Source of the DNA: Flavobacteriales bacterium
GTDB taxonomy: Bacteria; Bacteroidota; Bacteroidia; Flavobacteriales_F; PHOS-HE28
Assembly: GCA_018057455.1 (NCBI GenBank)
Contig: JAGPDT010000029.1
Coordinates: 1-36,346, forward strand
Direction of reading: 5' to 3'
DNA length: 36,346 nt
In this document: positions 11,160 through 17,813 of the stretch, piece by piece
How positions within the stretch are numbered: position 1 is the stretch's first letter
Layout of the letters: every line of letters begins with the position of its first letter
Program-made: the position numbers and the translations under genes
Notes under the pieces: generated by a model
Databases searched by the model: none
The model's input: the letters and a program-made list of their open reading frames with translations, nothing else
Told to the model about the DNA's origin: nothing

Positions 11160-11188
11160 CAAATGTACAGGAAGGCAGATTGCGCCAA
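11160..11188 (-). promoter_or_regulatory. Bacteroidota-type promoter for the kelch gene
   Basis: On the minus strand, TTG (11188-11186), an 18-base spacer and TACATTTG (11167-11160) form a good match to the Bacteroidota sigma-factor consensus TTG-N17..23-TAnnTTTG. It lies 23 bases before the ATG at 11136. The promoter appears intact although the gene has an early stop. Confidence 0.65.
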
Positions 11189-11201
11189 TAACCAGGCTAC
11201 C

Positions 11202-11294
11202 TTAAAAACTCCGCCCAACCCCCACCACATAGCGGAACGACATATACTCGGCTTCCCCGGCAGGAATGTTGGAAAGCACCAACGGCATGTCAAA
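11202..11294 (-). pseudogene. Remnant: last ~30 codons of an M1-peptidase-like gene
   Basis: This stretch encodes FDMPLVLSNIPAGEAEYMSF then RYVVGVGRSF and a TAA stop. It matches the end of the intact M1 metallopeptidase at 14643 (FDMPLVLSALPASETEHVAF then RYVVGVGRSF) at about two thirds of positions. A 26-base piece (11206-11231) is identical to 14647-14672. Homology stops abruptly at the F of FDMP; upstream sequence does not resemble the peptidase. It is therefore a fragment of a duplicated or deleted paralogue, not a gene. The two copies lie in opposite reading direction to the PKD gene and bracket it. Confidence 0.85.
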
Positions 11295-11405
11295 GCAGAG
11301 GAAGCGGCGTTGGTACTCCGTAAAGGCCAATAGGGCATGATGGAGTCTTCCTTGGTATCGATGCCTGATCGTTGTATGTTGTGCGGCGTTCAGACATACG
11401 AAGCC

Positions 11406-14400
11406 ATGCATTTGCGCGAACAGACACCCTTTTTCAAACTAGCGTGGGCTTTCTGTATCCTAATTGGAACCACGTTATCTGCCCAGGAGAACAGCCACTG
11501 GTACTTTGGGCACCATGCTGGCATCGACTTCACCAATGGGACGGCTGTGGCAGAAACGGGAGGTTTGGACGCACTTGAAGGTACTGCCACGGTTTCCGAC
11601 CAAGGCGGCAATCTGCTGTTCTATACGGATGGTGTCACCATCCGGGACCGCAACAACAATGTGATGCCGAACGGCTCCAGCCTCATGGGAGGGGCCTCCA
11701 GTACACAGGCGGCGCTCATCGTGCCCAAACCAGGGGCTTGTGGGACCTACTATGTGTTCACCACGCAGGATCATATGCAGAATGGAGACTTCCGGTACTC
11801 GGTTATTGATATGTGCCTGAACAATGGCTTAGGCGATGTGGTGGCAGGGGAAAAGAACATCATGATCTCCACCCCGTGCGGGGAGAAGGTCACTGCGGTC
11901 CCGAATTCCTCCGGCACGGGCTATTGGATCATTACCCATGTGTTGGGCGGGAATGCATTCTTGGCTTATTCCCTTTCCAGCTCCGGCCTGAATTTCGTGC
12001 CGGTCACCAGTAGCGTAGGTTCCGTGCAAGGCTCCACTTGCCAGATCGGCCCCCTGAAAGCCTCCCATGATGGGACAAAATTGGTTTCCACAAATACGTT
12101 CTGCAACCATGCTGAGCTCTTCGATTTTGACGCGGCCACAGGTGTGGTGAGCAACCCGGTGGATCTGGCAGGCTTATATGGCCTTCCGAATGGTTGCTAT
12201 GGCGCGGAATTCAGCCCGAATGACGAACTGTTGTACATCTCCACGACATGGGCCGTAAATAGGCTTTACCAGATTGATCTGGTCAACTCGATCGTATCGG
12301 AGATCGAGGAAGGCCCGGGAGGCACCTATTCATTTGGAGCCTTGCAATTGGGTGCCGACGGTCGCATATACATGGCCAGGAAAGATGAAGCTTTTCTTGA
12401 TGTCATCGAATTTCCTGACATCCCCGGAACAGCATGCAGCTACCTTCCTGCAGGATTGACCCTCGCTGCCGGCACTACGAGCGATATCGGCTTGCCCTGC
12501 CTGATCCCGGCCACGGTCCTTCAAGCCGACAGCGGTACGATCACCGTTGACCTGGGGCCTGATACTTCCCTATGCGATGGCCCTGTAATCTTGGCCCCAT
12601 CGGCTGTTTGCGGCGACATCTTTCTGTGGCAGGATGGCACTGTGGCCAGTTCATTCACCGCGGCACAGCCCGGTATTTTCTGGGTGCGTGTCTCGAATTC
12701 CTGCGGTGTTGGTGCGGATACTATTGTGGTGGGCAATGGCGGCCAGGCCCTCGCAGATCTGGGGCCGGATACCACTTTGTGCCCGGGTGGCTCCATCGTA
12801 CTGTCGGTACCTTCCGGAGCGGACAGCGTGTTCTGGCAGGATGGAAGCACCCTTGATGAATTCACCGTCTCGCTCCCCGGCATCTTTTCGGTCCAGATCT
12901 TTAATGGTGGATGCATGGGGCAGGATACCGTGGCGATCTCCGCCCTGCCCCAGCCACAAGCCGGATTTTCTTTTTCCTTGGACACCTGTACGCGAACCGT
13001 CTCGTTCGTAAACACTTCGCAAGGATCTGCTGCACAGGCATGGGACCTCGATGACAATACCACGAGCACGGCATTAGCTCCCCAGCATACTTATTCTGCC
13101 CCGGGGGCGTATACTGTTGCATTGGTGGTGCAGAACGGATGTGGTACGGATAGTCTATTACAGGAAGTGGACATTCCTGACATCGGCCAGCTTCAATTGA
13201 ACGGCCCTGATACACTTTGCAGCGGCACCACTGCGAACTATGTGGCATCCCTGACCGGAACCAGCCCATCAAGCATCACTTGGTCCAACGGCTCCACGGA
13301 CACATTGGGCATCACATACGGCCCGGGCTCGAGCCTTTGGTTATCCGTTACGGTAGCCGCAGCTGCAGGGTGCATTCTGACCGACAGTGTTTTCATCACG
13401 CTCATGCCTTTGCCCATTGCTAATTTCACATGGGAAGCGCATGCATGTGGGACGCAAGTATTGTTCAGTGACCAAAGCAACTTCGCGACAAGTTGGGCCT
13501 GGAACCTTGGCAACGATTCACTTTCAACCGATCCAAGTCCTACGGGTATTTATGAGCCGCCTGGTTTGTATACCGTGGTGCTGGCCGCCATGAACGATTG
13601 CGGGAGCGACACGGCCACAGTGGACATGGATCTTACGCCACAAGGCGAGCTCGTGCTCAACGGGCCGACCGACCTGTGTGCCGATGAAACCGGCATGTAT
13701 GCAGTGGACTTTACAGGCAGTGATATTGCTTCGGTGGCATGGAGCACCGGTGATATTGGACTGAGCATGAACTACACGATCGCCGCGGACACGGTCCTTG
13801 CCGTTGAATTGATCGGAACGGACGGTTGCACGTATGCAGATACCCTTGCACTTACAGTACAACCCTTACCTGTTGCCAACTTCACTTGGAGCCAGAACGC
13901 TTGCGACTCAAGTATCCTGTTCACGGATGGTTCGATGCATGCCACCAGCACGAGCTGGGACCTTGGATTTGGGCAAAGCAGCGTGCAACCGGCACCTACC
14001 GGCCACTACCCCGGCCCCGGAAGCTACAACGTGCAACTGGTCGCGGCCAATTCCTGCGGGAGCGATACAACTGAACTGGCCGTGGTCCTTGATGGCATGG
14101 GCCAATTGCTGATCACCGGCCCGGCATGGGTGTGCAGTGATGAGCCTGTGTCGTTCACTGCCGAACTCAGCGGTACTGACATCTCGGGCATTATCTGGTC
14201 AACTGGTGACACGGTTCCAGCCATAGCCTTGGGCTTCGATAGCGACCAATTGCTCAGTGCTGCGGCAGTGGGTGCGGATGGCTGCCATTACTTGGCGAGC
14301 ACAACCATTTCCGTAATTGGTGCGGATGGAGATGACCTCAACTATGCGCCGAACGTGTTCACGCCGAACGGAGACGGGATCAACGAGACTTTTGCACCGG

Positions 14401-14612
14401 TCATGGTGGATCCGGGGGCATTTTTGGAAATGCTGATCTTTAATCGGTGGGGCCAAGAAATCTATTCCACCACGAACATTCAACATCCTTGGGACGGTCG
14501 CTTCAAGGGTGCCCCTGTACCCGATGGAACCTATGTGTACATCATGCGCTGGATGAACCGCTGCCGTGGAACACGTGAGGAGCGGCACGGCCATGTGACC
14601 TTGCTTCGTTAG
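11406..14612 (+). CDS. PKD/propeller surface protein with type IX secretion C-terminal domain
   Basis: A 1068-residue secreted or surface protein. The signal peptide starts at the ATG at 11406 (basic MHLREQ, then FKLAWAFCILIGTTLSAQ); 23 upstream codons in frame from 11337 are discarded because they would bury it. Next is a propeller-like domain (about 27-385) beginning HWYFGHHAGIDF, common in gliding-associated proteins. Two LGPDT-x-LC modules follow (near 380 and 455), then PKD-like units with DLDDN and CGTDS/CGSDT endings, including three ~153-residue repeats. The end, YAPNVFTPNGDGINETF ... IFNRWGQEIY ... GTYVYIMRW, is the CHU_C/gliding-motility-associated (type B) sorting domain that directs export through the type IX system. 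Role (adhesion or binding) is inferred from architecture only. It sits between two copies of an M1-peptidase gene tail. Confidence 0.93.
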   Translation: MHLREQTPFFKLAWAFCILIGTTLSAQENSHWYFGHHAGIDFTNGTAVAETGGLDALEGTATVSDQGGNLLFYTDGVTIRDRNNNVMPNGSSLMGGASSTQAALIVPKPGACGTYYVFTTQDHMQNGDFRYSVIDMCLNNGLGDVVAGEKNIMISTPCGEKVTAVPNSSGTGYWIITHVLGGNAFLAYSLSSSGLNFVPVTSSVGSVQGSTCQIGPLKASHDGTKLVSTNTFCNHAELFDFDAATGVVSNPVDLAGLYGLPNGCYGAEFSPNDELLYISTTWAVNRLYQIDLVNSIVSEIEEGPGGTYSFGALQLGADGRIYMARKDEAFLDVIEFPDIPGTACSYLPAGLTLAAGTTSDIGLPCLIPATVLQADSGTITVDLGPDTSLCDGPVILAPSAVCGDIFLWQDGTVASSFTAAQPGIFWVRVSNSCGVGADTIVVGNGGQALADLGPDTTLCPGGSIVLSVPSGADSVFWQDGSTLDEFTVSLPGIFSVQIFNGGCMGQDTVAISALPQPQAGFSFSLDTCTRTVSFVNTSQGSAAQAWDLDDNTTSTALAPQHTYSAPGAYTVALVVQNGCGTDSLLQEVDIPDIGQLQLNGPDTLCSGTTANYVASLTGTSPSSITWSNGSTDTLGITYGPGSSLWLSVTVAAAAGCILTDSVFITLMPLPIANFTWEAHACGTQVLFSDQSNFATSWAWNLGNDSLSTDPSPTGIYEPPGLYTVVLAAMNDCGSDTATVDMDLTPQGELVLNGPTDLCADETGMYAVDFTGSDIASVAWSTGDIGLSMNYTIAADTVLAVELIGTDGCTYADTLALTVQPLPVANFTWSQNACDSSILFTDGSMHATSTSWDLGFGQSSVQPAPTGHYPGPGSYNVQLVAANSCGSDTTELAVVLDGMGQLLITGPAWVCSDEPVSFTAELSGTDISGIIWSTGDTVPAIALGFDSDQLLSAAAVGADGCHYLASTTISVIGADGDDLNYAPNVFTPNGDGINETFAPVMVDPGAFLEMLIFNRWGQEIYSTTNIQHPWDGRFKGAPVPDGTYVYIMRWMNRCRGTREERHGHVTLLR
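13185..14330 (+). repeat. Tandem ~153-residue repeats within the PKD protein
   Basis: Three copies start at 13185 (GQLQLNGP), 13644 (GELVLNGP) and 14100 (GQLLITGP), spaced 459 and 456 bases. Each begins with this strand, continues through an Ig-like half (ITWSNGSTDT, VAWSTGD, IIWSTGD) and, in the first two, a PKD half (PLPIANFTW / PLPVANFTW to NDCGSDT / NSCGSDT). The third lacks the PKD half and runs into the sorting domain. Confidence 0.8.
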
Positions 14613-14642: not shown

Positions 14643-17600
14643 TCAGAAACTCCGCCCAACCCCCACCACATACCGGAATGCAACATGTTCCGTCTCCGAA
14701 GCCGGTAAGGCAGAAAGCACCAACGGCATGTCGAAGCGGATCGTCAGTGGTTTGATGTCGTCCAAGGGTCCAAACTTTTTGATGGTGAGGGCCGCACCCA
14801 ACCCGGCATCCGCGCGGGGAAGGGCCAACTTCACCTGCGGGGTGCCTAGGTCGGTTACCGTGCGGTAGCCCATGGTGCCCACATCGCCGAAGAGGTAGAC
14901 GTCCAAGTGCAGATAATCAGCCAGCTTGCCGGGTCGGAAGCGCACCAAGCCGTCCAGATCGAGTTCGGCATTGATGGCCGCGCCCGTATTACCGGCGTAA
15001 GTGAGGATGACATTGCCCTCCGCATCCTTCTCCGGTGCCTGGTAGCCCGCGTAGCCGCGCAGGCCCAGCCCGCCGCCTTGCTGGAAGTGGTTCACGCCGG
15101 CCCCATAGCCCATCCAGTCGAAGGGCACAAAGCCGATGCTGCGGGTGTACTTGTCGGCCATCATGTCCTCGGGGGAGGCGCCGGCCAAATAGAGCTGGCT
15201 CTCGCGCGGCGTGGTTCCGCTGCCGTACTGCGCCAACAGCCGCGTGCGCAGGTTCAGCCTGCCCATGCGCGTGTTGTTCTTCGCGGTGGCGGCGGCTTGT
15301 GCAAACGGGTAGGCCGCGCCAATGCCGGCGGTGCGTACCTCAAGGCCAAGGGAGCCATTGCCTTTGTGCCAGTCGTAGCGGTGCTCCAGGCCGGTGTTCC
15401 AGGTGCTGTTCAGGGCGTGGAGTTCCCAGCGGTCGGGGTAAAGCAGGTAGGTGAGGTCCGCGCTGTCGCGCCGCAGCATGAACTTCATGTTGGTGTAGAG
15501 CGAGGTCTTGGTGAAGGGGATGTCCCAGTTGAAGCCGCCTTCGTATTGCTCCAGCCCGTCGAGCAGGCGTGCGGCCACGAATATGCTGGAGCCGTTCAGC
15601 CAGCGGCCGGTTCCGTTCTCGTAGCGGAAGTTGAGGCTGATGGGGTCGTAGGCCGTGTTCACGCCGCCGCCGGGGAGGCTTTGGCCCAGGCCGGTGTTCA
15701 GCCAGGCGCTGAACCACACCTGGTGCTTGTAGCGCAGGTAGCTGCCGTGGAAGTGGGCGCCCACCTTGAGGCCGTCATAGCCGTTGTACCAGAGGTCGGG
15801 CCTGGCGAAGCCTTGGTAGGTGCGCCAGTTGGGCCAATTGCGGATGTGGCTGTCGAAGGTGCTTTCAAAGGGGAAACGCAGGCTGTTGTTGAGCATGTTG
15901 GCGTCGCCCAGGCGGTAGCTGGTGTCGATGCGCACATCGGCGATGCCCGTGGGGATGTTCACCTCGGCGTAGTAGTCGCGTTGCAGCTCATCGAAGCCGA
16001 TCCAACGGGGCAGCACCGTGGCGCTGGTCTTCTTCACGAACCAGTTGTTCGGGATCAGGTAGTCGTAGGTTTTTCCGTCGTTGGCCTTCACGGCGAACTC
16101 GATGGGCATCTGCATGTCGCCGCTGCGGCGGAAGTGGATGCGCTGGCCGACGTCGGCATTGCGGTGCTTCACACCCTTCACGGCGTAATCCAGGCGCTTG
16201 CCGGTCTCGATCCACTGGTCGAAGAACCAGTTGAGGTCGGTCTTGGTGTAGTCGGTGAAGCTCTGGCGCATGTCCTCCATGTAGGGGTGCTTGAATTTCC
16301 ACTGTTGGAAGTAGTGGCGCAGCGCGCCGTTGAAGAGCGTATCGCCGAGCACGTATTGCAGGTTGAAGAGCATGGCGGAGGTCTTGTAGTAGACCATGCG
16401 GTAGCCGGTGTGGAGGCCGGAGAATTCGTCGCTGTGCACGTTGATGGGGGGCAGCTCGTTGCGCACGGCGGCACGCATGTAGCTGTTGAAGGTGAGCTGG
16501 TCCCGGGCCAGTGCCGGCCCGGTATAGCGCCGCTCGTAGGCGGTGGCGGCGGGCTCGGTCACCAGGGTGTCCTCGCCCACGTGTTGCATGCCCACGGTCT
16601 CAATGAACTGGGTGAAGCCCTCGTCGAGCATGGCGCGGTAGGTCTCGTTGTTGCCCACCATGCCGAAGAACCAGTTGTGGGCGATCTCGTGCATGAAGAG
16701 GGTGCGGTAGTCGGGTTCCTCGCCGCTGTCGAGGGTGAGCATGGGGTATTCCATGCCGTCGCGGGCATCGGCCACCACCATCTTGGGGTAGCCGTACATG
16801 CCCACGTACCCGCTGTGTGCGCGGATGCATTTGGCGGCGTATGCCGCGGCGTTCTGCCACTTGCTGGCATGCGGTTCCGAGGCCAGGGCGATGCACTGGA
16901 TGCCGTTCCATTCGGCCTCGCCGATGCGGTAGGTGGGGTCGGCGGTGAAAGCGAAGTCATGCACGTTCTCCGCATGGTAGCGCCACACCTTGCGCACGCC
17001 GGGCTGGTAGGGCGTGATCACCGAGGGAGGCGAGTTCCAGGGCTTGTCCTTGAAGTTGGCGATGTCCAGCTTCTTGCGCAGCTCCGGCGGCATCACCTCC
17101 TGGGGGTTCTGCAGCCAGCCGGTGGCCTCCACCACCATGTCGTTGGGCATGTCCAAGGCCACGTCGAAGGTGCCGAAGTCGCCGTAGAACTCATGGCCGA
17201 GGTGCTGCTGGGTGTCCCAGCCGGACTTGCGGTCGTACACGCTGATGCGGGGGTACCACTGGGTGCCGTCGAAGTGCTTGAATCCCCACTGGCTGTAGAG
17301 CTTCATGCGGCCCATGCCGCCCCAATGGGTGGTGAAATCGTACTTGAACACGGTGCTTTCACCGGGCAGGAGCGGCCGTGGGAGGGTCACGCGCAGGATG
17401 GTGTTGTCCAGTTCCAGCCGGGCCTGTAGTCCGTCCATGGTCATGGAGGGCACCCGGGTTCCGCGCTGCTGTTCCACTGGTTTGTTGCCGCGGCCGCTGA
17501 GTTGGGCCAGGTAGCTGTCGGGTTGGGCGGCGTTGGCGTAGAGGTGGAAGAAGGCTTCGCGCAGGGTGTCCGGTGAATTGTTCCAGTAGGTGAGTTCCAC

Positions 17601-17813
17601 GGTGCCTTGGGCGAGGTTCCCCACTTCGTCGAGCCGCACGTTCATGTTGTAGTGCACGTCCTGCTGCCAATAGCCGGGCCGTGGCGGGCTGTTCTTCCAG
17701 TAGTACGGGTTGTCGGCCTGCCGGAAGGTGTTGGGCGGGTGGAGGGGGTCGAAGGCTTGGGCGAAGGCTGTTCCGCAGAGCAGGCAGGCGAGCAGGAGCG
17801 TGGAATTCCTCAT
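14643..17813 (-). CDS. M1-family metallopeptidase with C-terminal outer-membrane barrel-like region
   Basis: A 1056-residue protein that begins with a signal peptide (MRNSTLLLACLLCGTAFAQ); the frame is open 47 codons further upstream, but the ATG at 17813 places the signal at the N-terminus. Residues about 20-620 are an M1 (gluzincin) aminopeptidase: DSGEEPDYRTLFM precedes the zinc motif HEIAH (375-379), and the third ligand E398 lies in LDEGFTQF, 18 residues after the last His. It would release N-terminal residues from peptides. From about 690 to the end the sequence looks like alternating strands of an outer-membrane barrel: GLGLRGYAGY (R919) resembles the VRGF/Y loop of Omp85 proteins, IKPLTIRFDMPLV a terminal strand, and the last residue is Phe (VGVGRSF). 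The enzyme is probably held at the cell surface or facing the periplasm. A remnant of a similar tail lies at 11202-11294. Confidence 0.9.
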   Translation of the reverse strand: MRNSTLLLACLLCGTAFAQAFDPLHPPNTFRQADNPYYWKNSPPRPGYWQQDVHYNMNVRLDEVGNLAQGTVELTYWNNSPDTLREAFFHLYANAAQPDSYLAQLSGRGNKPVEQQRGTRVPSMTMDGLQARLELDNTILRVTLPRPLLPGESTVFKYDFTTHWGGMGRMKLYSQWGFKHFDGTQWYPRISVYDRKSGWDTQQHLGHEFYGDFGTFDVALDMPNDMVVEATGWLQNPQEVMPPELRKKLDIANFKDKPWNSPPSVITPYQPGVRKVWRYHAENVHDFAFTADPTYRIGEAEWNGIQCIALASEPHASKWQNAAAYAAKCIRAHSGYVGMYGYPKMVVADARDGMEYPMLTLDSGEEPDYRTLFMHEIAHNWFFGMVGNNETYRAMLDEGFTQFIETVGMQHVGEDTLVTEPAATAYERRYTGPALARDQLTFNSYMRAAVRNELPPINVHSDEFSGLHTGYRMVYYKTSAMLFNLQYVLGDTLFNGALRHYFQQWKFKHPYMEDMRQSFTDYTKTDLNWFFDQWIETGKRLDYAVKGVKHRNADVGQRIHFRRSGDMQMPIEFAVKANDGKTYDYLIPNNWFVKKTSATVLPRWIGFDELQRDYYAEVNIPTGIADVRIDTSYRLGDANMLNNSLRFPFESTFDSHIRNWPNWRTYQGFARPDLWYNGYDGLKVGAHFHGSYLRYKHQVWFSAWLNTGLGQSLPGGGVNTAYDPISLNFRYENGTGRWLNGSSIFVAARLLDGLEQYEGGFNWDIPFTKTSLYTNMKFMLRRDSADLTYLLYPDRWELHALNSTWNTGLEHRYDWHKGNGSLGLEVRTAGIGAAYPFAQAAATAKNNTRMGRLNLRTRLLAQYGSGTTPRESQLYLAGASPEDMMADKYTRSIGFVPFDWMGYGAGVNHFQQGGGLGLRGYAGYQAPEKDAEGNVILTYAGNTGAAINAELDLDGLVRFRPGKLADYLHLDVYLFGDVGTMGYRTVTDLGTPQVKLALPRADAGLGAALTIKKFGPLDDIKPLTIRFDMPLVLSALPASETEHVAFRYVVGVGRSF

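Follow-up and report, generated by a model that had tools for sequence, protein, structure and literature searches.

A family M1 zinc peptidase fused to a predicted Omp85-type outer-membrane barrel in Bacteroidota

Does a long gene of a Flavobacteriales bacterium (contig JAGPDT010000029.1) encode a zinc peptidase built onto an outer-membrane barrel and, if so, on which side of the membrane would the enzyme work and what is the barrel for? The initial annotation of the window, the whole 36,346-nucleotide stretch of DNA that was analysed, suggested an M1 aminopeptidase fused to an Omp85-like barrel, displayed on the cell surface by its own membrane anchor. Here, we consider the gene and its peptidase, the predicted barrel, and the fate of both parts among relatives.

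The gene and its M1 peptidase

The open reading frame lies on the minus strand, with an ATG at 17813 and a stop at 14643-14645, and encodes 1056 amino acids. From N- to C-terminus, the protein has a signal peptide, an M1 zinc peptidase and a barrel region, about 390 residues long, with a C-terminal Phe. Alignment A1 comprises 61 homologues with 71-41% identity to the window protein, and AlphaFold2 was run on this 61-row alignment, for the whole chain and then for the barrel alone. The gene and the features upstream of the barrel are:

14643..17813, minus strand, complete gene for the fusion of M1 peptidase and 16-strand barrel (1056 amino acids plus stop; full-length homologues)
17760..17813, minus strand, signal peptide, residues 1-18, with AFA before the cleavage site and Q after it (by eye; signal peptidase I type, no conserved lipobox)
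16878..17669, minus strand, M1 N-terminal beta domain, residues 49-312 (model; PDB M1 matches begin at residues 46-51)
16194..16877, minus strand, M1 catalytic domain, residues 313-540 (PF01433 at 370-534; model and PDB matches)
16677..16691, minus strand, HEIAH zinc site, H375-H379 (third ligand E398 at 16620-16622; invariant in 61 homologues)
15864..16187, minus strand, beta-sandwich linking peptidase to barrel, residues 543-650 (model)

Both ends of the protein are as first described: the N-terminus reads MRNSTLLLACLLCGTAFA up to the putative cleavage site, followed by Q, and the C-terminal residue, F1056, is Phe in 58 of the 61 aligned homologues. A Pfam scan matches Peptidase_M1 (PF01433) at residues 370-534 (E 3.4e-17). 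In the whole-chain model (pLDDT 88.1, pTM 0.85), as in the PDB matches, residues 49-650 correspond to the N-terminal beta domain, catalytic domain and beta-sandwich of an M1 enzyme. The best matches of the full-length model are tricorn F3, IRAP, ERAP1, LTA4H and the two-domain Deinococcus M1 (Z 26-28). The helical C-terminal domain usual in M1 is absent from the modelled fusion; the beta-sandwich is also retained in M1 paralogues of about 640 amino acids that have no barrel.

The gluzincin site, initially read as complete, is indeed intact, with H375-E376-x-x-H379 and E398 forming the HExxH-X18-E pattern of family M1. The GxMEN exopeptidase motif appears as the variant DGMEY, in which E355 is invariant, and the candidate for the catalytic Tyr, assigned by sequence position and not by superposition, is the invariant Y475. 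Conceivably, the M1 part could have lost its enzyme function and now bind peptides, or act as a chaperone, for the barrel, as the M1-like part without catalytic residues in genomes G215 and G688 might suggest. We consider this very unlikely, however, because the zinc ligands, the Glu, the candidate Tyr and E355 are invariant in 61/61 rows of A1.

There is a vanishingly small chance that an assembly or frame error joined two genes. Nothing speaks in favour of such an artefact, and it is refuted by independent genomes, down to 41% identity, that carry the identical junction. A single copy (L267, G480:C27) has an in-frame stop that breaks the fusion, intact apart from this, into pieces of 448 and 628 amino acids, through either decay or sequence error.

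The 3' end of the gene looks like a recurrent insertion site. About 100 bp of it are repeated in the window (11187-11300 and 14643-14753, minus strand); the repeat covers the last ~31 codons and is 72-77% identical in protein. The 3.3-kb insert between the copies carries a PKD/CHU_C gene (type IX secretion) on the plus strand, at 11337-14612. The gene end of one relative (L082) passes straight into the kelch region with no insert. In G201/L067 this position is occupied by another insert, of 0.44 kb, which likewise is flanked by a 108-bp copy (92%). A plasmid search gave no match.

The barrel and its orientation in the membrane

Because M1 matches alone fill the list returned by the full-length fold search, the barrel was folded and searched by itself. 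The resulting AlphaFold2 model has 16 strands (mean pLDDT 90.6, pTM 0.87), which span residues 666-1052. The features assigned to this region are:

14646..15818, minus strand, predicted 16-strand Omp85-type outer-membrane barrel, residues 666-1056 (two models; PDB matches)
14985..15215, minus strand, loop 6 between strands 11 and 12, residues 867-943 (models, alignment)
15051..15062, minus strand, LRGY motif, residues 918-921, R919 invariant (alignment; Omp85 (V/I)RG(F/Y) motif, PMC7644211)
14964..14966, minus strand, E950 on strand 12 (Glu in 58/61, Gln in 3/61; PMC7644211)
14877..14891, minus strand, FGDVG on strand 13, residues 975-979, corresponding to Omp85 FxDxG, D977 invariant (alignment, PMC7644211)

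Searches of the PDB with the barrel alone (Foldseek, VIA-align 2) returned TamA, BamA, Sam50 and FhaC (best E 1.2e-8). All of the best 50 rows are BamA, TamA, Sam50 or FhaC, with Z 18.0-20.3 over 265-313 residues, making Omp85 structures the closest fold. The initial annotation had sought a closed 16-strand barrel with R919 in loop 6 as support for the fusion, and named a soluble beta-sandwich or propeller as the outcome that would speak against it. The proposed fusion is upheld by the model, which has 16 strands and places R919 between strands 11 and 12, and neither soluble fold was predicted for this region. The 12-strand barrel with central helix of type Va autotransporters does not describe this protein, with its 16 strands and long loop 6.

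Loop 6 of Omp85 proteins folds into the barrel and bears the motif (V/I)RG(F/Y), the Arg of which contacts the Asp of (F/G)xDxG on strand 13 in all Omp85 structures; in CdiB structures, a Glu on strand 12 steadies this Arg (PMC7644211). In the fusion, the longest strand junction is loop 6, with 77 residues between strands 11 and 12. It contains the GLRGY element that had been noticed at the outset, the motif itself reading LRGY with L in place of V or I, and its R919 is invariant in the 61 aligned homologues. Strand 13 carries F975-G-D977-V-G979. All three contact partners (R919, D977 and E950) are present, and the contact itself is predicted.

The profile searches that had been proposed against Omp85- and POTRA-type models turned out differently from the fold searches. 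No Pfam or NCBIfam model matches the barrel within residues 621-1056, none of the 61 homologous barrels matches PF01103 or another curated barrel family at E 0.1, and a Pfam scan at E 1 detects no POTRA domain; residues 49-650 are occupied by the M1 domains. A profile of the barrel alignment has no match among PDB sequences at E 10, and its resemblance to the BamA of relatives is slight and does not extend beyond the last strands (hhalign in local mode, E 7e-4, Prob 26). The genome of the window also has separate PF01103 proteins. Because neither a PF01103 nor a POTRA match is found, we file the predicted barrel as an Omp85-type fold of a divergent branch, and not as a classical member.

Outer loops of outer-membrane barrels are usually long and variable. 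In the alignment, junctions after odd strands have a mean of 19.8 residues (11.5 without loop 6) and the larger spread, whereas those after even strands are nearly fixed, with a mean of 6.3 residues and a small spread. Sixteen strands place both barrel termini on one side. Given this even number of strands, and the long and variable odd junctions against the short even ones, the N-terminal peptidase is most likely periplasmic, within the cell envelope and not on the surface. There is a precedent in the patatin domain of PlpD, which was long thought to be exported and was then shown to be periplasmic (PMC11116518).

For patatin-Omp85 proteins (type Vd secretion), it was once proposed that the enzyme is carried across the outer membrane by way of, or together with, the barrel of the same protein. 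The general analogy with these fusions and with autotransporters would favour such surface display here, but we regard it as quite improbable. When a barrel has 16 strands and its odd loops are long and variable, its N-terminal side faces the periplasm; in addition, loop 6 should occupy the lumen, and the enzyme domain of PlpD is itself periplasmic (PMC11116518). Thus, the surface-displayed enzyme of the initial annotation finds no support, as strand parity, loop lengths and the PlpD case all point to the periplasm.

Distribution of the fusion and loss of the peptidase

The residues H375, E376, H379, E398, Y475, E355, R919 and D977, plus several further barrel residues, are invariant in the 61 homologues; as this holds down to 41% identity, the features of the peptidase and of the barrel are not due to chance. 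The same architecture occurs in 13/13 genera among 30 near relatives (full-length or partial match). Homologues are found in many Bacteroidota genome records, mostly metagenome-assembled, and most align end to end; the record titles name Flavobacteriales, Chitinophagales, Saprospirales, Bacteroidales and Cytophagaceae. The barrel profile matches 41 of the 45 genomes of the order (one genus code). In a class-level sample it matches 204 of 395 genomes (87 of 196 genera); a genome nearly always has a single match and, of the matches listed, the usual one lies in an open reading frame of about 1050-1130 amino acids. In a phylum-level sample it matches 70 of 395 genomes, most matches being reading frames of 400-470 amino acids. 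In one order the fusion is hardly ever missing, and it is common across a class of Bacteroidota.

The fused barrel belongs to the same family as stand-alone barrels of about 420 amino acids (hhalign Prob 100, E 1.5e-47). These are encoded by separate genes in other families, at 400-470 amino acids, and families f21 and f56 contain both forms. The stand-alone barrels seen at L010-L038 and L184-L211 are of this size and have no Pfam model; at several f23 loci the gene stands just before acetate kinase, after NUDIX and GreA genes (names by eye). The same genera also have a second M1 paralogue of about 1000 amino acids (L174 (G000:C119), L175, L176 and L313-L330). Its C-terminal region is a remote homologue of the barrel (hhalign Prob 97, E 5e-11), and the LRGY loop is absent from those of its sequences that were read. 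A different fusion, of 1093 amino acids, has a long N-terminal part with TolB-like propeller repeats (by eye) before a PF01103-matching barrel (L182, G201:C1:1899000-1905000).

In several lineages the barrel is kept and the peptidase is not. Family f41 (G215, G688) retains an M1-like part from which HExxH is gone, with an intact barrel. In f44 (G218), about 220 residues that lack an M1 match stand in place of the N-terminal part; a beta-sandwich remnant may be among them (by eye), and the barrel is again intact. In f48 (G514, G541) only signal peptide and barrel are left; the relative G222 has the full fusion, and no M1 match occurs in the 7 kb around the G514 gene. Well-supported branches of a 72-row unrooted tree force four changes between M1-active and inactive or missing states, of which three lie inside the fused clade and the fourth sets apart the stand-alone clade. 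The f41, f44 and f48 losses fall at different places on this tree, each outside the stand-alone clade. Most lineages have a peptidase that retains all of its catalytic residues, and for this reason we do not regard it as dispensable there.

The idea that the barrel serves only as a membrane anchor, the whole role given to it in the initial annotation, fits poorly with its persistence where the peptidase is gone. Under that explanation a scavenging aminopeptidase in the periplasm would digest peptides where they enter across the outer membrane. The invariant catalytic residues of the 61 homologues, a fusion conserved end to end, and the barrel-like region of the second M1 paralogue, remotely homologous and lacking the LRGY loop in those sequences that were read, are all in its favour. 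However, conservation of the barrel extends to lineages that have no peptidase (f48, f44) or only an inactive form of it (f41), and to a large family in which the barrel stands alone, and an anchor leaves the invariant R919-D977 pair unexplained; we therefore hold this explanation to be possible but doubtful. Because the barrel persists in lineages whose catalytic part has become inactive, been lost or been replaced, it is probably more than an anchor, with a function of its own.

Proposed function and comparison with known systems

We favour, with a probability of roughly 0.55, an outer-membrane protein of Omp85 type whose periplasmic M1 aminopeptidase acts at the inner face of the outer membrane. 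In this scenario, the precursor would first be exported by Sec, and the C-terminal third would insert as a 16-strand Omp85-type barrel. Loop 6 may plug the lumen through the R919-D977/E950 contact, as predicted from fold and motif. The N-terminal two thirds, the family M1 zinc aminopeptidase, would remain on the periplasmic side, next to the inner face of the outer membrane, as the topology suggests, where they may trim N-terminal residues of peptides or unfolded polypeptides. The fusion, the intact catalytic residues, the Omp85 fold and motif, the conservation and the repeated peptidase loss beside a retained barrel come out of the computations; we infer the membrane side, the substrate and activity, and any coupling of peptidase and barrel.

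An assembly or translocation activity of the barrel is suggested by analogy only with Omp85 proteins. Taken further, the protein could be a single-chain assembly or translocation factor with its own aminopeptidase, gained or lost by lineage, in which the barrel would handle incoming polypeptides and the M1 domain would trim their N-termini or clear stalled chains; this we think unlikely. In the favoured scenario, which is a best guess, the role of the M1 domain could be either quality control of barrel clients, of the kind that the separate M48 protease BepA performs at BAM (PMC13067283), or peptide scavenging. The gene neighbourhood offers no clear functional lead: at roughly half of the loci (32-34/67), nadC and a YihY/BrkB gene are located upstream in the same orientation.

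Annotation sees only an M1 peptidase in this widespread protein. The natural series of fused active, fused inactive, peptidase-deleted and stand-alone forms provides a comparison for the role of an Omp85-type barrel without POTRA domains, and lets one ask whether proteolysis is coupled to outer-membrane assembly.

With other M1 aminopeptidases (PepN, LTA4H, tricorn F3, the two-domain Deinococcus M1) the fusion shares the N-terminal beta domain, the catalytic domain and HExxH-X18-E. It differs from them in that the helical C-terminal domain is absent and an outer-membrane barrel is predicted after the beta-sandwich. With BamA, TamA, Sam50 and FhaC it has in common the predicted barrel fold, RG(F/Y) in loop 6, FxDxG on strand 13 and the Glu on strand 12, but it has no POTRA domain and its sequence similarity to them is weak, at profile level only. 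BepA, an M48 metalloprotease that acts at the BAM complex (PMC13067283), is likewise a zinc peptidase at the periplasmic face of an Omp85 machine. This likeness is one of analogy only, as BepA is a separate protein of a different peptidase family.

Omp85 barrels without POTRA have been described before, as the subfamilies 'Metallo' and 'noNterm' of Heinz and Lithgow (2014, PMC4104836), who define the 'Metallo' class by PF00149, termed metalloprotease there, and in whose main text the word 'peptidase' does not occur. The barrels of both subfamilies resemble that of the fusion in having no POTRA domain; 'Metallo' has an N-terminal metal-dependent domain and 'noNterm' has no N-terminal domain. 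Since PF00149 is the family of calcineurin-like phosphoesterases, the 'Metallo' class is probably not a protease fusion. The open-access literature searched contains no description of an M1-Omp85 fusion, which is weak evidence of absence, and we expect that the proteins are surely in public databases as M1 peptidases.

The closest parallel is offered by the patatin-Omp85 proteins, PlpD of Pseudomonas aeruginosa and FplA, which likewise combine an N-terminal soluble enzyme with a 16-strand Omp85-type barrel and have the enzyme on the periplasmic side, as we suspect for the fusion. PlpD has a POTRA domain and a lipase, whereas the fusion has an M1 peptidase, no POTRA domain, no patatin domain in the Pfam scan, and a barrel unmatched by PF01103. 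What is new is the recognition of the architecture, its spread and its repeated decay, and not the principle; with it, a peptidase joins the few enzymes that are known to be fused to barrels of Omp85 type.
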